Part shown: positions 3-11,465 of the stretch, in pieces
Layout of the letters: every line of letters starts with the position of its first letter
Position numbering within the stretch: the first letter of the stretch is position 1
Assembly (NCBI GenBank): GCA_030833985.1
Contig: JAURGC010000005.1
Location: forward strand, 1 to 36,831
DNA from: Algoriphagus sp.
GTDB taxonomy: Bacteria; Bacteroidota; Bacteroidia; Cytophagales; Cyclobacteriaceae
Direction: 5' to 3'
DNA: 36,831 nucleotides
Program-made: the position numbers and the translations under genes
Notes under the pieces: generated by a model
The model's database searches: none
Told to the model about the DNA's origin: nothing
What the model saw: only the letters and a program-made list of their open reading frames with translations

Positions 3-338
3 GGCATTGCGGGCATATTCCTCCTCCTGACTGGGTTTTGGTGGATTAAAACCCAACAAAGGAAGCGTAATTTAGTGAACCTATCCCCTGTAGTAACCAA
101 GGAACATTTGGACCTATTTATCCGAGAGCACCTCAGTACCGTTTCCATAGAATTACTCTCCACGCACTATAAGTTGACTGTAGGTGAATTGTACAAACTA
201 ATGGGCAACAATAAACCTGGGGAATACATCCGTAAACTGCGCTTAGAAAAAGTGAAAGCGCTACGAGCAGAACAAAAGACTTTGGAAGAAATAAGTGCCA
301 TTACCGGATTCTCAGTGAGTTACCTCAAAAAAATCTAG
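3..338 (+). CDS. C-terminal part of an AraC-type HTH transcriptional regulator preceded by a hydrophobic (TM-like) segment; 5' end outside window
   Basis: The frame stays open upstream of the listed start to the window edge (GIAGIFLLLTGFWWIKTQQRKRN...). Two-helix AraC-like pattern ...EYIRKLRLEKVKALRAEQKTLEEISAITGFSVSYLKK. Confidence 0.7.
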   Translation, partial: GIAGIFLLLTGFWWIKTQQRKRNLVNLSPVVTKEHLDLFIREHLSTVSIELLSTHYKLTVGELYKLMGNNKPGEYIRKLRLEKVKALRAEQKTLEEISAITGFSVSYLKKI

Positions 339-356
339 TTTGCCACAAGGCAGACT
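327..356 (-). terminator. Rho-independent terminator downstream of galE
   Basis: Minus strand: AGTCTGCC-TTGT-GGCAAACT stem followed by AGATTTTTTT. Confidence 0.55.
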
Positions 357-1177
357 TATCCTTTTCTCAACGTCTGCTGCCAGCGCCAGCTGTCTCGCAT
401 GCAGTCTTCCAAGTCATACTTAGGATTCCAGCCCAAGACTTGATTTATTTTGGTGGTATCGGCCCAGGTCTTCACCACATCTCCAGCCCTTCTTGGACCA
501 ATTTCATAGGCCAATTGAAGATCATTTACTTTTTCAAAGGCATGGATCACCTCTAATACAGTGTTGCCTTTACCTGTGCCTACATTGAATACCTCGTAAA
601 AATCAAGCGGCTTTTCAAAGAGAAAACGGAGCGCCTTCACATGTGCATCGGCCAAATCCACCACGTGGATGTAATCTCGGATGCAACTTCCATCGGGTGT
701 GTCGTAATCGTTGCCAAACACGGTGAGTTTCTGACGAATTCCAGCCGCTGTCTGCGTGATGAAGGGAACCAGGTTTTGGGGAGTACCCATGGGTAACTCG
801 CCTATCTTTGCAGTCGGATGCGCTCCTACGGGATTAAAGTAGCGGAGTGCCACTACGCGAATCCCAGGTTTGCTTTTGAGGTAATCCAATAGGATATCCT
901 CTCCGAATTTCTTGGTATTTCCGTAAGGACTTTCGGCATCTTTTCGAGGGGTTGATTCCATAACGGGCAGCACATCTGGCTGTCCATAAACCGTGCAGGA
1001 GGAAGAAAAGACGAGATTTTTGATTTCCTTGTCTCGCATAAACTCCAATAAGACGAGTAAAGACCCCAAGTTATTCTTGTAATAAGCCAAGGGCTGCTGG
1101 GTACTCTCTCCTAAGGCCTTGAAGGCTGCAAAATGGATGACCCCTTCGAGTTGATGGTCTTTTGCGATTTGATCCAA
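356..1177 (-). pseudogene. galE: UDP-glucose 4-epimerase, N-terminally truncated (Rossmann GxxGxxG segment, about 60-65 aa, missing)
   Basis: GVIHFAAFKALGES, YGNTKKFGE, ALRYFNPVGAHP, GSCIRDYIHVVDLADAH, NVGTGKGNTVLEV are GalE hallmarks. The upstream frame hits TGA within about 10 codons with no TGGAGYIGSH segment. Confidence 0.85.
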
Positions 1178-1212
1178 AAGATTAAAACAGGAAAAAGTGT
1201 GAATTCATTTCA

Positions 1213-1461
1213 CTAAGGATTGAGAATAGATCGCTGGATATTGATCAAAAAATTATAGAGTTGGGAAGGCTGAAGAATAACCACTATCTCTTCTTCATCA
1301 GACTTATCCGATTCAATCAGAATCATTATTTTTTTAGCGAATGAATCCTCCTTCTCCGTTATTTCATCTGGACCAATAAAGTAGTCATCTTTAATAATGT
1401 AATGGGAGTCTGATTCTATGGCTAAGAGTTCTTTTAACTGACTACTTATTTTTCTTTCCAT
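1213..1461 (-). CDS. Hypothetical acidic 82-aa protein near left end of the insertion
   Basis: ORF with ATG start; no recognised domain. Confidence 0.4.
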   Translation of the reverse strand: MERKISSQLKELLAIESDSHYIIKDDYFIGPDEITEKEDSFAKKIMILIESDKSDEEEIVVILQPSQLYNFLINIQRSILNP

Positions 1462-1573
1462 GGTCTTCTACTATGCCAGTTAGGCTGAATTTATTTTTAC
1501 TTCCTTCAATATTTCCGGTAATTGAATCGAGCAAATTTTTCAATTGATTCTCTGTGATGATTAATTTCTTCAT
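1442..1573 (-). CDS. Hypothetical 43-aa protein (MKKLIITENQLKNLLDSITGNIEGSKNKFSLTGIVEDHGKKNK)
   Basis: Read on the minus strand; ATG to TAG, overlaps the start of the 82-aa ORF by about 20 nt. Confidence 0.3.
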   Translation of the reverse strand: MKKLIITENQLKNLLDSITGNIEGSKNKFSLTGIVEDHGKKNK

Positions 1574-1622
1574 ACCCATAAATATCCGATTCCTTGTTTT
1601 TTTGAAATTTTGGCCAGAAATT

Positions 1623-1656
1623 TTTTATGACAAAAGATCATTTTTTTGTCATAAAA
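1623..1656. repeat. Perfect 13-bp inverted repeat TTTTATGACAAAA / TTTTGTCATAAAA, 8-nt spacer
   Basis: Directly visible arms at 1623-1635 and 1644-1656. Confidence 0.8.
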
Positions 1657-2003
1657 TAATTTTTTCAGAAAAAAACTTCACTCAAAAAATTATCCCCCCT
1701 ATCCGAATTGCCAAATACTTGACATGTTAAGTTCTGATACCGAGAGGGGGGCCGGGGGGCCGGTCATTATTAGTGAGATCGGCAATTATTCTTTGCAGTA
1801 TGATTAAGAATTAACTGTTTAAATGAATTGAACTAAAGGGTTAGTTTGGTCCAGTCACTTTTTAACAGATCAGCGCTTACAAAACAGTGCGAAGTTTTAT
1901 TCTAGGCAGCTAAAATTCTTTGTGAATTGATGGTTTACAATTCAGGAACGAACAATGCTGCATTGTAATTTTTGTCGCTCTATATTAGCCCAAAGGGATT
2001 CAT

Positions 2004-2651
2004 ATGGAAAAATACATTGGTTATGTTCGAACGAGCACTGGAAAACAAAATCTTGGTTTAGAGGAACAACAAACTCAGATTATCAATTTTATATCAAGCC
2101 AAAATGGGGAGTTAGTGGAGATTATCATGGAACAAGAAAGCGGAAAGAATAATTTACGTAAAGGTCTCGAGACCGCTTTGGAGAAATGTTCTAGGAACGG
2201 TTGTACTTTGTTATTTACAAAACTAGATAGGTTGACTAGAGAGGTTGAGTTTTTGTTCGCCATCCGAAATAGAGGTGTAAAGTTGCGATGTATAGCTTTA
2301 CCGGAATTAAATACCCTGACCCTTGGCATTTTTGGTTCCATGGCACAATATGAAAGGGAAATTATCTCCCACCGTACAAAACTCGCATTAAATGAGTTGA
2401 AGAAGACAAGACCGCTTGGCAAAATCGAAAACCTGACGAAAGAAGGTCGTCAAAAAGGAAATGAGATAGTAAAACAACAAAGAATCGAAAATGAAAACTG
2501 GAGGCGTGCAAAAACATTCGTTGAACATTTTCAAATGAAAAATGGGTATTTGAACCTGGCTGAAGTTTCTCGCCTCTTAAATGAAAACGGGTACAAAACA
2601 AGGAAAGGTTGCTCCTTTAGACCAACTACAGTCAAAAGATTGTTGTCTTAA
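2004..2651 (+). CDS. Small serine recombinase (resolvase/invertase family)
   Basis: YVRTSTGKQNLGLEEQQTQI catalytic-Ser region, LLFTKLDRLTREVEFLF, GSMAQYEREIISHRTKLAL, C-terminal HTH-like region. Confidence 0.85.
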   Translation: MEKYIGYVRTSTGKQNLGLEEQQTQIINFISSQNGELVEIIMEQESGKNNLRKGLETALEKCSRNGCTLLFTKLDRLTREVEFLFAIRNRGVKLRCIALPELNTLTLGIFGSMAQYEREIISHRTKLALNELKKTRPLGKIENLTKEGRQKGNEIVKQQRIENENWRRAKTFVEHFQMKNGYLNLAEVSRLLNENGYKTRKGCSFRPTTVKRLLS

Positions 2652-2747
2652 TTTTTGATAAATATTGTTTTGTTTACTGTTGACCAAAACTTAAATCCAT
2701 TGTTTAGCTTCAACAGTAATGTCATCCACCCTACTTTTTTAAACTAA

Positions 2748-2761
2748 TCGTTAATTAACGA
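2748..2761. repeat. Perfect 14-bp palindrome TCGTTAATTAACGA
   Basis: Directly visible; TCGT...ACGA arms recur at 2782-2792. Confidence 0.8.
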
Positions 2762-3023
2762 AAGACTCAATCCCCACCTTGTCGTTTTACGATAAATAAT
2801 TAGACCTAATTTTTTAAAAATCATCGTTCTGGTTGATTGAATCGAAAAAATTCTCTAATGATAGTGCCTATTTAACTCAGTAAATCACACGGTTCTTTCT
2901 TACGACAAAAACATCAATTGAAGACCATATTTGTTTTTTAATCCTGTTCAAAATTAAATTAGTCAACTTTTTTAGGCGCAATTTTTTTTTACAAAAAATT
3001 GAGTTTATCCTTTTTAAAAAAGG

Positions 3024-4538
3024 ATGATCAAAGTTGTTGCAGTACCAAAAGGAATAGATGTTGAGGGTCTTTTTGAAAGTTTTAGTGTATTACAATTACG
3101 TACGAAAGCTCGCCTAAAGGACAAAATTTACTACTTCCTATCCAAAGTCGTTACTCATGACGGCAATATTCATTTACACGAAAAAAATGAAGGTTTTCGT
3201 CGAATTTCCATGAGTAAAATGGATAAGATACTTGGATCGAGGGATTCCAGATTCATCTTAAAAATACTCATGCAAGAGTCTAATCCAATTATTGAAAAAA
3301 AACCTAGTTACCGTGTTGGCAAATTCCCAAAAGGGTACCGATTAACTATAAAATATAGAACCGGTGAAATCGAATTTAAATCCTTAAAAAAAGACTTATC
3401 TGAAAAAATCCTTTTGGTTGAGAAGAATGAATCCTCCCTTCCAAATTACGATTTCTTGACTGAACAATTTTCGAAATACAGAATCAATTTTACTCTCGAG
3501 TTTCAGGAATTTATTTTTGAAATGGGTTTAGGTCTTATTGGACTTTCGGTCAACAAATTCCAACATCAAATCATATATAATAAAATGGGGAGGTACCTTA
3601 AATACTTAGAAGAAATGAATTCTGGAAGATTCCATATTAGTCATTCACAAAAAAACCACAGATTAAATTCAATACTTACATGGGTACCAAAAGAGAGTCG
3701 GAATTTTATAAATATAGGAGGGCAATCGATGGTTGAAGTGGATTTAAGTTGTAGTCAGCCTTACCTATTGGCTTCCATCATAATAGACATACTTAAAGAG
3801 GAAGGGTCTCTTAAAAAGGAAGAGAACACTACTAGAACATCCTTCTCCATTATTAACTATATTAAGGAAGTAGAGAATGAATTAATTCAAAGGATATATC
3901 CCTTTATGTTGCGCACTTTTTCAGAAATGAGTGAAGAACAAAAAGACTCACTTCAATATTTTACCCAAATTCCATTTGATCAGGATTTTTATACTTGGAT
4001 ACAGGATCAATCACGTCAAAGAGTGAAAAGAAACGAAGTCAAGGGGGCCATTCTTTTTTTCCTTTTTGATGATAACATGGGCCATAGAAGGAATAGTAAA
4101 ATCCTAGTTGAACTTTCATACTTACTCCCAGGACTAAATTATTTCATAGAGACCATGCTCAAGTTGGTCGGTAATTCTGATTTTGCTAGGTTTCTTCAAA
4201 TAATTGAAAGCCATATCTTAATTAATATCTTAGTCCGATCTTTCCATTCGTCATTCCCAGAAATCCCTCTTTTCACAATTCATGATGCAATACTTACTAC
4301 AGCAGAGTTTGCCCCTAAACTAAAGAAATATGTAGATGAGGAACTGAGTTCACTTACATCCATCAAACCACGGACTAAAATTTCTTACCCAACTCCAATG
4401 AAGGATTTAGTCGAGTTGTCGATCCTTAAGGAATGGGATAAAATCAAGAAAATAGATACCAGAAAGAAATATGAAAAACTTAAACACTCAATCTTTCCAA
4501 TAAACATCCAGCGAGGAAAAAATATGCTTGAGAGTTAA
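3024..4538 (+). CDS. Divergent A-family (PolA/T7 RNAP-like) palm polymerase or primase-like protein of a mobile element
   Basis: Ordered motifs: RNFINIGGQSMVEVDLSCSQPYLLAS (motif A-like), RQRVKRNEVKGAILFFLFDDN (motif B-like), IPLFTIHDAILTT (motif C-like HD). Confidence 0.6.
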   Translation: MIKVVAVPKGIDVEGLFESFSVLQLRTKARLKDKIYYFLSKVVTHDGNIHLHEKNEGFRRISMSKMDKILGSRDSRFILKILMQESNPIIEKKPSYRVGKFPKGYRLTIKYRTGEIEFKSLKKDLSEKILLVEKNESSLPNYDFLTEQFSKYRINFTLEFQEFIFEMGLGLIGLSVNKFQHQIIYNKMGRYLKYLEEMNSGRFHISHSQKNHRLNSILTWVPKESRNFINIGGQSMVEVDLSCSQPYLLASIIIDILKEEGSLKKEENTTRTSFSIINYIKEVENELIQRIYPFMLRTFSEMSEEQKDSLQYFTQIPFDQDFYTWIQDQSRQRVKRNEVKGAILFFLFDDNMGHRRNSKILVELSYLLPGLNYFIETMLKLVGNSDFARFLQIIESHILINILVRSFHSSFPEIPLFTIHDAILTTAEFAPKLKKYVDEELSSLTSIKPRTKISYPTPMKDLVELSILKEWDKIKKIDTRKKYEKLKHSIFPINIQRGKNMLES

Positions 4539-4937
4539 GTATTCAAATTTGCTGAGCCGATAAAAATGTTCATGTTTAATTGAAGTAATCCGTTTCTCAA
4601 TTTGACAAGAACCTTAAGAACATCAGCAACGGTTGAACTTTATTCCAACTTTCCTCTGAGGATTACAGACCGGTTCATCTATTGAATTTGATTTCTTCAT
4701 GTAAATCGTAAGGAAGTTCAACCATTAACCACCGTTCATTCACTCAATGAATCCCAAAGAAAAAGGGCGAACAAGGGGATAGGGTTGGACTTCTTTCAAC
4801 CGCAAAAGGCGTAGTATTGGGTTGATTGAATTAGAAACTTAGTTTTTTAATTTTTTTTTATTACTAAACCTTCGTTTTTAGAGGTTTTGGAGGGTTTTTG
4901 AAAAAAGATCAATATTTTTTAAAAAAATGTTGTGAAA

Positions 4938-4945
4938 TAAATTTG
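4938..4945 (+). promoter_or_regulatory. Possible Bacteroidetes-type -7 element TAAATTTG upstream of the 4995 ORF
   Basis: Matches TAnnTTTG consensus; weak upstream T-rich -33 region. Confidence 0.3.
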
Positions 4946-4994
4946 CATAACATTTTTGTTGTTACTAGCTTTGCTCACAACAAAACGAAAAACT

Positions 4995-5618
4995 ATGAAT
5001 CTTCTCCTTGAAATCACTAGCACCCCGGTATTGGAATCTCTCCTATTTCTCCTTCTTGCTGGACATGATGCAATGAAAATTAATTGGTCTAATGGGTTGG
5101 TTAAAGATTACTTCAACCAATTCAATGAATTAAAAGAAAAGTCAGAAGCAGTAGAATTCGTAAATATCGTCCTTCAAGACAATTTCAATGAAGATGTAAA
5201 AAATGATAAGTCTTTAACTCACCTTCACTACAGGTTGGAAAAACTCAAAAAACAACTCTTAAAAACCTACTTCACTTCCCTCAAAAGGGAAAAGGAGTTT
5301 TTGGATCAATACGAGTATGTTGGAGATTTTAATTCGGTTATTTCAAAACTCTTCCTACAGATGAAAAGACTTCAATTGGTCATTCAACCTGATGTTCAGA
5401 TTGCTACCAGTGTGCATGCTAAGTCTAAAATCACTTACATGACTGCACGAGGATTTTGGATTAATGATTCAGGTGAAAGAGAAAGGGCTTTTGTTAAGTC
5501 TCTAGGAAGGCTGGATGAGTTTAAGGAAGGAAAGAAAGACCCAGTTATCGAAAAAATTGGAATAGAAAAAATCCGAGAAGCAAGTCTTCAAACATACAAT
5601 TCAAAATACCCTGATTGA
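4995..5618 (+). CDS. Hypothetical protein (about 207 aa; ORF track start 4956 is a TTG, ATG at 4995 more likely)
   Basis: Long ORF in the same orientation between the polymerase-like and MTase genes; no recognised domain. Confidence 0.55.
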   Translation: MNLLLEITSTPVLESLLFLLLAGHDAMKINWSNGLVKDYFNQFNELKEKSEAVEFVNIVLQDNFNEDVKNDKSLTHLHYRLEKLKKQLLKTYFTSLKREKEFLDQYEYVGDFNSVISKLFLQMKRLQLVIQPDVQIATSVHAKSKITYMTARGFWINDSGERERAFVKSLGRLDEFKEGKKDPVIEKIGIEKIREASLQTYNSKYPD

Positions 5619-5784
5619 GGGGTGTTTTTTTGAGAATTTTGTCGGCCAAATTTCGATAACAACATTCATTGATTATTAATTAGTGCCTTCTATGATGTCA
5701 TAATGACCTCGCATGGGATTCCTACGCCTAATTAGTCGACCTGAAAAAGATAACAACAATAAGTAAACCATAAACCAATTTCTT

Positions 5785-7560
5785 ATGAAAAACCAAGTAC
5801 AAAATGATGTCCAAGTGATGTCAAATCCAATTGAAAAGTTTGTCAGAAAATCTGCTGAACTCCTTCCTGCCACATCTAATAATCACTCGCAGCTTCCTCA
5901 ATTTAGGGACAGTGGACGATGTCAAGATGCCAACAGCATGCAGTTGATTGAAGTATCTCAAATCATCGAAGTCGAAGGACTTAAAACTTTCTATGATGAC
6001 TGGACCGAGCTTGAAAGAGAAGACATGATTTCTTCTCTTGAAACTCACGGCCAAAAAGTCCCAGCGATTATTAATAAGGATAACATCCTAATTGATGGCT
6101 ACAGAAGAAAGGTTTGTCTTGAAGAACTCGGAATTGATGGAATTTGGGTGATAGTGAAAGACTGTCCTCCAGCGCTCGAGGAAAGAATAATCCACAATAA
6201 GTACCGAGTGAAGACAACTAATGACCTGGTAAAGGAAATTAAGTCAGTATTCGAAAAGTTCCCCAAAAAACAAGGAAAGAAAAATCTTGAGGGAAAGTAT
6301 ACCCGGCACGAAGTCATTTCAAATGAACTTGGGCGCAGATGGAAAGGTGATAAAACCCTTAAGAAAGTTGAGGAGGTAATGGAAAATGACCTTGAAGGTA
6401 ATACCCTACTAAAGGGTATCGTCTCCCAGAAATGGTCTGTCGACAAGTGTCATGAGTACATTGAAAAATGGAAAGGAATCGATGAGGTCAACAATTATGG
6501 GCTCACTGAACGCCTAAAAAAAGGAGAATTATCCATTTCTGAGACCTGTAAATTGATTGAGTCCAGACATGGACTAGATAAGTACCAAGACACTTTCGTA
6601 ATCCCCAATAAATCCATCTCATTCAACATGGATTGTACCTTAATCAAAAACATGAAGGATTTTTTCGGGAAGATCGCGCTAATTTTCACATCTGTGCCGT
6701 ATTTCTCCCTTCGTTTTTATGAAAATGGTGAAGGTTTTGATCAATTAGGTCACGAAGAAACTCCCTTTCAGTACTGCGAGAGAATGGCGAAAATAATTGC
6801 GGATGTCTCAGTAACACTTAAAGAATCTGGAAACCTGATGATCAATATCGGTGAGTCTTATGAGAATGGTGTTGGTCTTGGAATTCCTGATATGCTGAAA
6901 GAGTCAATTTTAAAGCACACCAAGTTAATATACAAGGAGAGACTGGTATGGACCAAGCCTAATCCTCGCCCTCAGAATGAGAATGTGCAAAGGCCAATCA
7001 ACAACTTGGAGTATATTCTTTGGTTTGTAGTTGACCCTGAAAAGGCCAAATACAATTTGGTCACCTACACTGACCCTAGGAAAGAGAAGAAAATGAAAAT
7101 TACAAATGGTGCTAAAGATGTGGACGAAAATGGAATTGTATGGGAGAAGGTGAAATCCATTTCCAAACCGTACCAAAAAATCATGTCCCATATTTCAGCT
7201 CAGCAGGTTCTTCACATGATTGAGTGTACCACTGGAAAAAATAGTGAAATCTATAAGGTTTATAGTGAAGGTGGGCCGGCAGTCATGGCAGAGCTTCTCC
7301 CAATACTTCCGATCATGATGACGACCACCGAAAACGACGGCGATATTGTATATGATCCCTTCTCTGGGACGAATGTGGTTGGAAGATCAGCAATCCTTCT
7401 AAATAGGATGGCCTTAGCCACCGAATTGTCTCGAAAGTATTACACCATAGGATGTGGAGTTGTAGAAAACGCTGTCAAAGATTTCAATCAAGAGGATTTA
7501 GATCTTGTGAATTATTTCTGTAATCCTGAAATGGAAAATCATTTCCCAGTTGCAGCCTAA
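5785..7560 (+). CDS. ParB-like N-terminal domain fused to beta-class N4/N6 DNA methyltransferase
   Basis: ParB-like ISSLETHGQKVPAIINKDNILIDGYRRKVCLEELGI. MTase motif IV-like TSVPYFSLRFY...ESGNLMINIGESY, then motif I-like VYDPFSGTNVVGRSA...YYTIG. Confidence 0.8.
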   Translation: MKNQVQNDVQVMSNPIEKFVRKSAELLPATSNNHSQLPQFRDSGRCQDANSMQLIEVSQIIEVEGLKTFYDDWTELEREDMISSLETHGQKVPAIINKDNILIDGYRRKVCLEELGIDGIWVIVKDCPPALEERIIHNKYRVKTTNDLVKEIKSVFEKFPKKQGKKNLEGKYTRHEVISNELGRRWKGDKTLKKVEEVMENDLEGNTLLKGIVSQKWSVDKCHEYIEKWKGIDEVNNYGLTERLKKGELSISETCKLIESRHGLDKYQDTFVIPNKSISFNMDCTLIKNMKDFFGKIALIFTSVPYFSLRFYENGEGFDQLGHEETPFQYCERMAKIIADVSVTLKESGNLMINIGESYENGVGLGIPDMLKESILKHTKLIYKERLVWTKPNPRPQNENVQRPINNLEYILWFVVDPEKAKYNLVTYTDPRKEKKMKITNGAKDVDENGIVWEKVKSISKPYQKIMSHISAQQVLHMIECTTGKNSEIYKVYSEGGPAVMAELLPILPIMMTTTENDGDIVYDPFSGTNVVGRSAILLNRMALATELSRKYYTIGCGVVENAVKDFNQEDLDLVNYFCNPEMENHFPVAA

Positions 7561-7599
7561 CCAACCTTATTCATTATCAAAACTAAAAACGAAAAAGAC

Positions 7600-7752
7600 A
7601 TGAAAACCAAGGACAAAAAAATCAAAAGACTTACTAAGGAAATCAAAATCAACAAACTTTATCCATGGGAGGACAACTGCATGGATGCTATAAACCTGAA
7701 TGGAAAGGTTTGTGGGATTATTCTACCCTTTGCTATTAACCAAGCAGCATGA
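7600..7752 (+). CDS. Small 50-aa ORF, first of a coupled trio with the large serine recombinase
   Basis: MKTKDKKIKRLTKEIKINKLYPWEDNCMDAINLNGKVCGIILPFAINQAA; stop overlaps the next ATG (ATGA at 7749-7752). Confidence 0.5.
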   Translation: MKTKDKKIKRLTKEIKINKLYPWEDNCMDAINLNGKVCGIILPFAINQAA

Positions 7753-7961
7753 TTACGAAAGAAAGGAATCTACAAGAGGAAAACTCAAGAAATGGACCCT
7801 CCCCTACTGGGGAGGATCTAATTTCCCTGGAACTATTGATGGATGCGTTTGCGGAATTAGAATATCAATTCTTCTTAGAAAAAAATGAGATGTTGAATGC
7901 AGCATCTAATCAACCTAGACTTGACCTTAGCCACACCACGAACCAAAAAACTGCTGCCTGA
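7749..7961 (+). CDS. Small 70-aa ORF coupled to the large serine recombinase
   Basis: ATGA overlap at its 5' end and TGATG overlap (7959-7963) at its 3' end. Confidence 0.55.
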   Translation: MITKERNLQEENSRNGPSPTGEDLISLELLMDAFAELEYQFFLEKNEMLNAASNQPRLDLSHTTNQKTAA

Positions 7962-9502
7962 TGAAAAATGTAATTTCCTATTCACGTGTCTCGACTGATG
8001 AACAAGCTCAACAAGGTTATTCATTGGACTACCAAGAACAAACCATCCAAAGGTACTGCGAATTGAAAGATTACAAGATCATTCAATCGTTCCGTGAAGA
8101 TCATTCGGCAAAGGATTTTGAACGTCCAGAATGGAGAAAAATCATCAAGCTGGTCAAATCCAAAGAGAAACAAAAAGACAAGATTTCCTCTGTTGTGATT
8201 TTACGAGCTGATCGATTTTCAAGGAATTTACTTTTATCACTCGTTGAAAAGGCGAAGCTGAATGTATTTGGTTGTACCGTTGAGTTTGTAGAGGGAGGAA
8301 TTGATTTAACCAGTCCCGAATCACTAGTTGTCGAAGCAATCCAATATTCGCTACCCCAAGTAGAGATTGAAAAACTGTCTTTGAGGACAAGAGAGGGTTC
8401 CTATAAGTGTAGGCTATCTGGCGGATGGACAGGTTCACCATTAAGAGGGTATAAGTCAATCAGACTTGAAAAATTTCCTTCTATGGCATTAAATGAACAA
8501 GCTCCAATAATCAAAGAGGCATTTGAAAAAATGGCCACTGGCCTGTATTCAGCTGATCAAATCAGACGTTGGTTGAATTCAAAAGGCATGAAAATCACAA
8601 AAAACCAATTCCCAAACATAATTAGAAACATCGCCTACACGGGAAAAATACTGATTCTACCATTCAAAGATCAACCGAGAAAAATTGTAGACGGTCTTCA
8701 CCCCTCTTTAGTCAGCGAAGAACTCTTTTCGGCAGCGAATCACGTTCTTGACGGAAGAAAAAGAAACATGAATTTCAACCCAGAAAAATCAGATTTATAT
8801 CCTCTCAAGGGGTTTTTGAGATGTCCAATACACAATAGGACTTTATCGGCTTATGGTTCAAAAGGAAGGTGTGAAATCTACCATTATTATGTTTGCACAA
8901 AAAATAGATGTCCAAGGTATCCTATTCAATGGGCACATGATCAAATTGAAAGAATCTTAGACCAGATTCAATTTTCTGCAAAAACGGTGAACCATTACAA
9001 AAAAATACTAGCGAAGAAATTTGATTCAATGGACTTAGATAGAAAGCGTAAACAGAGGGAGTTAGAAAGGGAGTTAGAAACTTTGAAGGGTCGCAAAACC
9101 TATTTACAAAATGAGTATTTGGAAGGTAAAATTACAGCTGCTGATTTCAACGAATTAAAATCCACCATCGAAGTGAAATTTTTCCAAACTGACTTGGAAC
9201 TATCTAACTTAAAAAGTCAAAAAACTCCATTTAAAGACTATCTGGACAACGATATTCCTTTAATGGAAGACTTGGTTGGATTTTACCAAAGAGCTGATGG
9301 CAGGTCTAAAAAGAAGTTACTTGGACTTATCTTTTCAGATAAGATTGAATTTGATGAAAACAAAGTGCCCAAATTCTCATTTACTCCTCCAATTAACTCT
9401 CTTATTCAAATCTCAAAGAATGCAGAAAAAGATGAGGTATCAATTGAGCAATTAGAAGGGTTCGTAAGAGGAAGTGGAGACTTTAAATTTTTAAGGATTT
9501 AA
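7961..9502 (+). CDS. Large serine recombinase / site-specific integrase
   Basis: YSRVSTDEQAQQGYSLDYQEQTI, ILRADRFSRNLLLSL, recombinase-domain region, zinc-ribbon-like LRCPIHNRTL...YYVCTKNRCPRYPI, coiled-coil C-terminus. Confidence 0.93.
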   Translation: MKNVISYSRVSTDEQAQQGYSLDYQEQTIQRYCELKDYKIIQSFREDHSAKDFERPEWRKIIKLVKSKEKQKDKISSVVILRADRFSRNLLLSLVEKAKLNVFGCTVEFVEGGIDLTSPESLVVEAIQYSLPQVEIEKLSLRTREGSYKCRLSGGWTGSPLRGYKSIRLEKFPSMALNEQAPIIKEAFEKMATGLYSADQIRRWLNSKGMKITKNQFPNIIRNIAYTGKILILPFKDQPRKIVDGLHPSLVSEELFSAANHVLDGRKRNMNFNPEKSDLYPLKGFLRCPIHNRTLSAYGSKGRCEIYHYYVCTKNRCPRYPIQWAHDQIERILDQIQFSAKTVNHYKKILAKKFDSMDLDRKRKQRELERELETLKGRKTYLQNEYLEGKITAADFNELKSTIEVKFFQTDLELSNLKSQKTPFKDYLDNDIPLMEDLVGFYQRADGRSKKKLLGLIFSDKIEFDENKVPKFSFTPPINSLIQISKNAEKDEVSIEQLEGFVRGSGDFKFLRI

Positions 9503-9777: not shown

Positions 9778-9938
9778 CTAAATTATGAAAATCACTCATC
9801 CCTTACTTTCTAAAAATTATTCCCTCTTATATTCTACATCACATATTCTTTTCAAATTGACGAGAGTCCAAAAAATAATATGTTATTTTTCCACCGATAG
9901 TAAAATGCTTGTGTTTTAAATGTTCAAATCCTGAAAAA

Positions 9939-10967
9939 ATGGAAAAAAATCCTTCCAATAAAACTTCCTTAGAGCTCTTGGAAAACCTTATTTTGAATCG
10001 AATAAATGAAAATGCTGTAATGTGCCTAAGTATGTTTCAGGCAATGGATGCCTTTGAATCTACTAGGCAAAAATTGATTGATGATTTTTTTATAACAAGA
10101 GAGTTACCTGTAATTCGTAATTTTTTTAGAACTGGTACAAAACCAAATCAAAATGAATTTAATTTTTATTTATTGGTACCAGGTTTTGGTGATGTGCCAA
10201 TTAGTAATCCTTCTATGAAGGATTTTATTCTTGATAATTCTGGAGATTATATCGAAAAAAAAATTAGAGAAGAATTTAAGTTTGCATTAGCTAATCAATA
10301 CAACTACCATTTTTTTGGAGGAACGGACCTTGATGAATTCTTAAAAGGATGTAGAGAGGGAAATAGTTTTTTTGGCCTACCTAATTTGCCATTAAGAGGC
10401 GTTAGTCATGGTTCTCATTTTTTAGATGCTACAGAACGAGGATTTTTTGATTTTTACAAGTATCAGCTACAGATAGGTGATGGTGAAGTAATTGATTTTG
10501 AAAATGCAAATACAGCATCAGAATATCTGTCAAAAAGAGAATCTAATTTTACTAAACTTATAGATGAATATATAAGTAATTATATTAGAGTTATTTATAG
10601 CATGATGAAAGTTTCCAGCATTCACGCCATCATTAGAGAATTACATTGGATTGGAATTACATTGCAAAATGAGAAATTGATTTCAGAGGGAGAAGATGAT
10701 TTATATCTATTGGGTACAAATGGAAGAAAATATTACTATCAAGATCCATTTAGAATGGGCACGGCAATAGAGGAAGATAATTTCATGTTTGGTTTTAATA
10801 GTAAAATGAGATCTGTTTGCTGCAAACAAATAGAAGCGCTTGAAAATTTGAATGACAATGAAAGTAAATTGAAATATGAATACTTAATTCGGCTATGTGA
10901 TTTCAGAAGTGTATATGAATCATTCTTACCTGAAATTAATCTTTCTCCTTACTACTCTTCCTGGTAA
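9939..10967 (+). CDS. Hypothetical protein (about 342 aa), AT-rich cargo gene
   Basis: Long ORF; ATG at 9939 more plausible than the TTG at 9909; no recognised domain. Confidence 0.6.
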   Translation: MEKNPSNKTSLELLENLILNRINENAVMCLSMFQAMDAFESTRQKLIDDFFITRELPVIRNFFRTGTKPNQNEFNFYLLVPGFGDVPISNPSMKDFILDNSGDYIEKKIREEFKFALANQYNYHFFGGTDLDEFLKGCREGNSFFGLPNLPLRGVSHGSHFLDATERGFFDFYKYQLQIGDGEVIDFENANTASEYLSKRESNFTKLIDEYISNYIRVIYSMMKVSSIHAIIRELHWIGITLQNEKLISEGEDDLYLLGTNGRKYYYQDPFRMGTAIEEDNFMFGFNSKMRSVCCKQIEALENLNDNESKLKYEYLIRLCDFRSVYESFLPEINLSPYYSSW

Positions 10968-11124
10968 TTCGAATTACAAATTTGAAAAAGTTCTTAAGTA
11001 AAAGGTTAATAATTTGTAAGTACCCCGTTTTTTCGAACCACATACAAGGTGAATGAGAGTTAGCTTTTAGATAGTCAATAGGACTTTGGTTATTCAATGA
11101 TTGATGTGGGTGGTATCCATTCAT
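10936..11124 (-). pseudogene. C-terminal remnant of an IS3-like (rve/DDE) transposase
   Basis: NGYHPHQSLNNQSPIDYLKAN resembles the terminal motif of IS3-type OrfB (Y-N-x-RPHQSLNxxTPxxY). An in-frame stop lies just upstream of ATG. Confidence 0.4.
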
Positions 11125-11351
11125 ACCTTAACTAAAAAGAAATGGGGAAATCAACTGATTCAGAGTTTTGTCCAATCGTAAACTAACGAAAAGAGAAAAT
11201 TCCCCCTTCCAATCCTTGAATCAATTTAATGGATTGAAAACCAATTAGTTAAAAATTACAGCTGCATGTAGGTACATTTTTTCCCTAGTAAGTTTTAAAA
11301 AAGATGCAGCTGACAAAAATCCTTGTTTAAACGAAACTGGTGGGGATAAAA

Positions 11352-11384
11352 ACAAAAAAAAGAGGTCATTTCTGACCTCTTTTA
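11352..11384 (-). terminator. Rho-independent terminator downstream of tRNA-Asn
   Basis: AGAGGTCA-GAAA-TGACCTCT stem followed by a T8 tract on the minus strand. Confidence 0.75.
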
Positions 11385-11391
11385 CCCAACG

Positions 11392-11465
11392 CTCCCCCTC
11401 TTGGGCTCGAACCAAGGACCCCATGATTAACAGTCATGTGCTCTAACCAGCTGAGCTAAGGAGGA
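11392..11465 (-). tRNA. tRNA-Asn (anticodon GTT)
   Basis: TCCTCCT TA GCTCAGCTGGTTAGAGC ... GACTGTTAATC ... CTTGGTTCGAGCCCAAG AGGGGGA G folds as a cloverleaf; acceptor TCCTCCT pairs with AGGGGGA (one G-U). Confidence 0.93.

Follow-up and report, generated by a model that had tools for sequence, protein, structure and literature searches.

Positions ~1180-9502 of the window, the whole 36,831-nucleotide stretch of Algoriphagus sp. DNA analysed here, hold a compact element of ~8.3 kb with two serine recombinases and its own polymerase. We read this segment as a complete-looking integrative element that cycles between the chromosome and a circle, with a probability of about 0.65. The element belongs to the TV-Pol integrative elements, a kind already known, in a new arrangement. 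Direct support was obtained for its gene content, the co-occurrence of its genes across genomes, the TV-Pol catalytic signature, the exchange of modules and the end genes common with a relative.

Extent and gene content of the element

The window corresponds to contig C10 of a MAG of 2.6 Mb (229 contigs, 82% complete), in which the element is present in single copy. The genus resembles the Cyclobacteriaceae, the family to which Belliella is also assigned. GC content is 0.30-0.40 from ~1.2 to ~11.4 kb, compared to ~0.46 in the surroundings; the AT-rich DNA described after galE by the sequence-only reading does start at ~1.2 kb, but it extends to the tRNA-Asn gene at 11391. From left to right, the element comprises two small leftward ORFs, a small serine recombinase, the polymerase, a small orphan, a ParB-methyltransferase (ParB-MTase), an ORF of ~70 aa and a large serine recombinase (LSR). 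All the genes named by that reading were found at the positions it gave, with the small serine recombinase near the left end (2004-2651, + strand) and the large one near the right (7961-9502, + strand).

The candidate left end, or attL region, lies at 1180-1212, between the point where galE similarity ends and an ORF of 82 aa (1213-1461, - strand). Homologs of this ORF are present at the left end of a related element in G085, another species of the same genus (28% identity, E 4e-10), and as a leftover in G350. It adjoins a 45-aa ORF (MGMKKLIITENQ...; 1442-1579, - strand), and the DNA at 1532-1626 is 75.5% identical to the equivalent place in G085. The right end was placed at, or just beyond, the LSR stop. 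Because the genes at both ends are common with G085, the left-end ORF (~1180-1212) and the end of the LSR (~9502) were taken as the limits of the element; the boundaries first proposed for it are close to them. In the AT-rich gap between the divergent genes, positions 1740-1763 form a 24-nt nearly pure G/C run (CCGAGAGGGGGGCCGGGGGGCCGG), and a different G-rich tract occupies the equivalent gap in G085. The tract was considered as a structured origin and rejected, its folding being no better than that of shuffles.

Neither relaxase, T4SS nor other transfer genes were found among the ORFs or family matches of the element, and no helicase among those of 1180-9502. Capsid, terminase, tail and packaging genes were likewise missing from the element, with no such PHROG match. 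These results agree with the earlier observation that no relaxase, T4SS, capsid or terminase could be recognised.

The polymerase, its neighbours and their recurrence

The polymerase ORF (3024-4538, + strand; 504 aa) gave no match to the Pfam, PHROG and NCBIfam polymerase models and has no exonuclease match. In an alignment of 20 homologs, R213, D240, R336xxxK340 and H420-D421 were invariant and R226 nearly so; the catalytic acids correspond to the motif A Asp (D240) and the motif C HD (H420-D421). The top 50 PDB fold matches listed for the structure model (pLDDT 87.4) were all DNA polymerase I-type, T7-type or mitochondrial RNA polymerases, with modest scores (best E 3.5e-4, E near 1e-3, TM 0.2-0.34); a TV-Pol profile found no match among PDB sequences. 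The TV-Pol branch of A-family polymerases was described in 2008 for mobile elements of bacteria and for SCCmec, and its hallmarks are palm acids, an RxxxK motif, a template Arg, the lack of a nuclease domain and a resolvase or integrase neighbour (PMC2579912). Because the defining residues, the fold, the missing nuclease and the serine recombinases on both sides match this description, the ORF is assigned, from sequence and model, to the TV-Pol branch as a candidate primase-polymerase. CcPol of SCCmec has been placed in the same group, and a complex of CcPol and MP makes primers (PMC10061031). Homologs of the polymerase were found in 26 of 391 genomes of the order and at 21 named loci.

In two Aquirufa species, a homolog of the small orphan (4956-5618, + strand) with 30% identity lies between TV-Pol and ParB-MTase, and a weak one precedes the ParB-MTase of a marine Bacteroidota MAG (L125; E 0.006). 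No family model matched the orphan or the small ORFs. The structure model of the orphan (pLDDT 74) comprises a helical N-part and a beta3-alpha C-part, which is not an OB fold, and all its matches were non-significant, several of them, faint, being to PC4/Pur-alpha ssDNA binders. Its homologs beside ParB-MTase and this model make it a candidate polymerase partner or DNA-binding protein. The following gene (5785-7560, + strand) encodes a ParB-domain N4/N6 DNA methyltransferase, with a clear match to N6_N4_Mtase (PF01555, 1.9e-23), a weak one to ParB (TIGR00180, 1.9e-5) and a resemblance to PHROG_67. Motif IV of this protein has SVPY/SIPY where PPY is usual, and the protein is conserved in G085 (75%), L127 (53%) and L130 (51%). 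In Fusobacterium animalis (NZ_CP077186.1, 209393-211786), a recombinase stretch resembling the LSR N-part adjoins a methyltransferase resembling the ParB-MTase C-part. The small serine recombinase (215 aa, resolvase-type; Pfam Resolvase 2.7e-24) has counterparts at the equivalent position in G085 and Sandaracinomonas, and is a candidate dimer resolvase.

A search for the co-occurring gene set, as had been proposed, showed that further genomes carry the cassette at different loci, so the genes are not scattered remnants. In three marine Bacteroidota MAGs (L125, L127 and L130), ParB-MTase, TV-Pol and an LSR with 43-47% identity to that of the window follow each other in one direction. Two Aquirufa species (L128/L129 = L103/L104) carry, in order, a small tyrosine recombinase, TV-Pol, an orphan of ~250 aa and ParB-MTase, with a right end made of HTH/Xis and tyrosine integrase that is complete in one of the two; the order in Sandaracinomonas is small serine resolvase, TV-Pol, HTH, tyrosine integrase. 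A Chitinophagaceae TV-Pol (L135, 7119-11197) is divergent to a distant LSR (25% identity) that ends in a tRNA-Arg gene. The G085 element keeps the left-end ORFs, the small resolvase, the ParB-MTase, the small ORF and the LSR (81%), but where the window has TV-Pol and the orphan it carries an HTH protein of 291 aa and a protein of 372 aa.

In the TV-Pol tree, the window grouped with tyrosine-integrase elements (96/96), whereas its ParB-MTase and LSR grouped with LSR elements. A single clade of LSR-borne TV-Pols was rejected (p-AU 0.014; 0.0013 for a subset picked after the tree was seen). Because the TV-Pol branches with one kind of element and the ParB-MTase and LSR with the other, the comparison points to modules being exchanged between elements, integration parts being kept and replication parts swapped.

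The G085 locus (L174) also contains, at 15-4450, a long CRISPR-like array of ~72-bp spaced repeats near the integration site, where G350 carries a comparable array. G350 was considered as an empty site for the G085 element, but it retains the left-end leftover and so is not clean. Behind the intact LSR of G085, the C-terminal part of another, related LSR survives at 9842-10169; the two LSRs reflect serial integration at one site.

Large serine recombinase, flanks and integration site

Resolvase matches were obtained at 2.7e-24 and 1e-19 in the element, together with a Recombinase match at 3.9e-12. The 513-aa LSR, a predicted integrase, carries Resolvase and Recombinase domains (PHROG_95, 3e-66); its Y-x-R-V-S-T catalytic motif is invariant (Y7, R9, V10, S11, T12) and a weak zinc-ribbon match (PF13408) reached 17 bits, below the cut-off of 25.3. 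In its clade (L145-L173), a tRNA gene is present at the LSR 3' end in 25 of the 29 loci, always antisense and overlapping the LSR end or within ~0.2 kb of it, and the isotypes vary (Arg, Pro, Gln, Lys, Met, Glu, Asn, Leu). The LSR ends of L127 and L130 overlap tRNA-Asn. No adjoining tRNA is found in the window and in the other four loci (L145 = G085, L147, L148 and L172). For six tRNA-adjacent loci, attL copies were sought in the DNA around them and none was found; in the window, a search for attL/attR as direct repeats or tRNA-end copies gave nothing convincing.

A 70-aa ORF (7749-7961, + strand) overlaps the LSR start codon, as does a short ORF in G085 (61% identity over 46 aa), L125, L127 and L130. 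A profile built from eight ORFs preceding LSRs was searched against 297 kb in six frames; all matches (E up to 0.05) fell directly before LSRs, and 13 came from loci that had not contributed to the seed. The profile missed the 70-aa ORF of the window, which has just an LAxIEYxxY-like motif in common with it. Members of this family are 45-80 aa long with the pattern ...ILxFLRKLAxIxVxxYL, precede most LSRs of the clade and have no model in Pfam or NCBIfam. Where elements use a tyrosine integrase, Xis takes this position. From this position and these homologs, we infer a candidate family of recombination directionality factors, the 70-aa protein being the candidate of the window.

The right flank consists of a tRNA-Asn(GTT) gene (11391-11465, - strand; ARAGORN) followed by CotH, an order conserved in four relatives (G002, G004, G007 and G013). 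The locus is an integration hotspot, because the tRNA/CotH side is kept whereas all sequence beyond the tRNA 3' end differs among these genomes. In G004 the hotspot contains the decayed end of a related LSR, and in G007 the tRNA-Asn 3' flank with its terminator is duplicated around a 0.9-kb insert (window 11269-11403; L050 178-310 and 1228-1315). The 10-mer TTAAACGAAA occurs close to tRNA-Asn in both the window and G007, and again in G004 where the LSR end has decayed; as a trace of an att site it is suggestive only. The window LSR does not end in a tRNA, and 1.9 kb of other DNA lies between it and tRNA-Asn. A 352-aa orphan without family match (9909-10967, + strand; 30% GC) stands there outside the element, and a short frame at 10936-11124 (- strand; MNGYHPHQSLNNQSPIDYLK) resembles by eye the end of an IS3-type transposase, with no Pfam match. 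For the element of the window, tRNA-Asn is a likely integration site.

The left flank had been taken as evidence for insertion into galE. The joint itself is real, since a galE lacking ~60 N-terminal codons (356-1177, - strand; TIGR01179 positions 60-330) loses its similarity to the closest relatives at 1179-1180. However, this copy is a second, partial one belonging to the flank and not to the element: an intact resident galE is present on contig C204 of the same genome, and the end of contig C41 overlaps C204 (337 bp, 98.5%), which restores the PKD-protein/galE order of the relatives. The missing N-terminus does not lie to the right of the element, where the sequence leads to tRNA-Asn and CotH instead. 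Insertion into galE was thus ruled out. The partial copy looks acquired because its product is nearer to G007 galE (93% aa identity) than to the C204 copy (83%). The ORF to its left (3-338) is absent from 38 relatives. Since this contig stems from a MAG, a misassembly at 1180 is also conceivable, which would make the left flank uninformative and is compatible with an integrative element. The 229 contigs, the position of the galE piece at a contig end and the resident galE elsewhere speak for such a chimera; we nevertheless hold it unlikely, as no repeat across the joint could have misled the assembler and 33 bp separate the joint from the ORF whose homolog sits at the left end in G085.

Alternative readings, proposed cycle and known systems

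The most serious competitor is a former plasmid or integrative element stuck in the tRNA-Asn hotspot and no longer mobile. No complete attachment-site pair was found, decayed LSR ends are present in the hotspots of G004 and G085, and the element is flanked by the galE piece and orphan DNA. Against this, the core ORFs are all open and full length, G085 retains the same end genes and the galE piece has no frameshift, and we regard a stuck remnant as rather doubtful. A phage satellite or prophage remnant replicating by TV-Pol would account for the ParB-MTase, fusions of this type being enriched in phages (PMC12704722) and PHROG_67 being its likeness, yet no capsid, terminase, tail or packaging gene accompanies it and the TV-Pol has no match in 50,697 phage records, so that this origin is very improbable. 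Among viral contigs, the LSR had no match, the ParB-MTase one weak partial match, and the TV-Pol matched one bacterial-looking contig with cys genes and a tyrosine integrase. One of 72,556 plasmids matched the TV-Pol (25%), and it carries a replication initiator of its own. TV-Pol as the sole replicase of a Hymenobacter plasmid was rejected, that plasmid also having an annotated replication initiation protein. The least probable reading, for which we see hardly any chance, is an SCC-type cassette with a CcPol-MP primase. It would combine LSR, A-family polymerase and small neighbour ORF, and CcPol itself is filed under TV-Pol (PMC2579912, PMC10061031), but the element has no COG3378/DUF927 helicase, the orphan model is not an OB fold, the CcrA, CcrB and CcrC scores are 54, 64 and 24 bits for cut-offs of 700-900, and the flanks are the galE piece and the tRNA-Asn/CotH hotspot, not rlmH or ssrA. 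Membership in SCC is refuted by these tests and a functional likeness remains; the earlier proposal of a non-phage, non-conjugative integrative element with SCC-like logic is supported.

For an integrative element, the cycle can be pictured as follows, with excision, replication and the roles of the 70-aa protein, the resolvase and the methylase inferred from the gene content. The LSR would insert and excise the element, and the overlapping 70-aa protein would most likely turn it to excision. TV-Pol would prime and copy the circle with the assistance of the small orphan, the host supplying the helicase, and the small serine recombinase would resolve dimers. The ParB-MTase may mark or protect the DNA of the element or aid its maintenance; it could also act in anti-defence or host interaction, as proposed for the phage fusions (PMC12704722). 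More tentatively, and with odds that we put below even, the element may represent a Bacteroidota-wide class of integrative elements that replicate themselves, do not conjugate and are assembled from interchangeable parts. One part would serve integration, another would be a ParB-methyltransferase, and a third, open to swapping, would serve replication, with a TV-Pol working in it as primase and polymerase although the element brings no helicase. For integration, this possible class would use a tRNA-seeking LSR together with a very small directionality factor coupled to it in translation, or else Xis together with a tyrosine integrase.

TV-Pols were predicted in 2008 to be primase-polymerases of mobile elements (PMC2579912). 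An 8-kb element with natural replicase-swapped relatives offers a clean set on which to examine replication by TV-Pol, alone or with one small partner. To our knowledge, the SCCmec branch is the only one tested so far among TV-Pols. Directionality factors of serine integrases are hard to find and useful as tools, and the small conserved protein that precedes most of the clade's LSRs provides a family of candidates.

Several known systems share parts of this organization. Pipolins are integrative elements with their own primer-independent replicase (piPolB) and tyrosine recombinases; they resemble the element in being integrative and encoding a replicase but differ by the family B polymerase and the tyrosine recombinases. 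piPolB is mentioned in PMC10061031. The Aquirufa elements have in common the TV-Pol, orphan, ParB-MTase order and a tiny DNA-binding protein then an integrase at the right end, and differ by using a tyrosine integrase and a small tyrosine recombinase instead of two serine recombinases. Bacteroidota LSR islands at tRNA genes have a related LSR preceded by a small ORF; in the eight examined at 12-18 kb, no relative of TV-Pol or ParB-MTase was found nearby. SCC and SCCmec CcPol-MP cassettes (PMC7581432, PMC10061031) are also LSR-driven islands with an A-family polymerase and a small partner ORF, whereas the element has neither helicase nor OB-fold partner and occupies a different site in another host phylum. 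Viral TV-Pols and the CcPol-MP of SCC operate next to a helicase, while the element encodes none. The element is also close to the TV-Pol elements described by Iyer, Abhiman and Aravind in 2008 (PMC2579912), in a paper whose main text describes neither a ParB-MTase nor the gene arrangement of the window. In those elements too, the polymerase is a minimal one of the A family that lacks a nuclease domain and has a resolvase-type recombinase or an integrase as neighbour; they occupy integration hotspots, and Bacteroidetes are among their hosts. The element of the window differs from them in combining an LSR with a small resolvase, a ParB-MTase and a small LSR partner.
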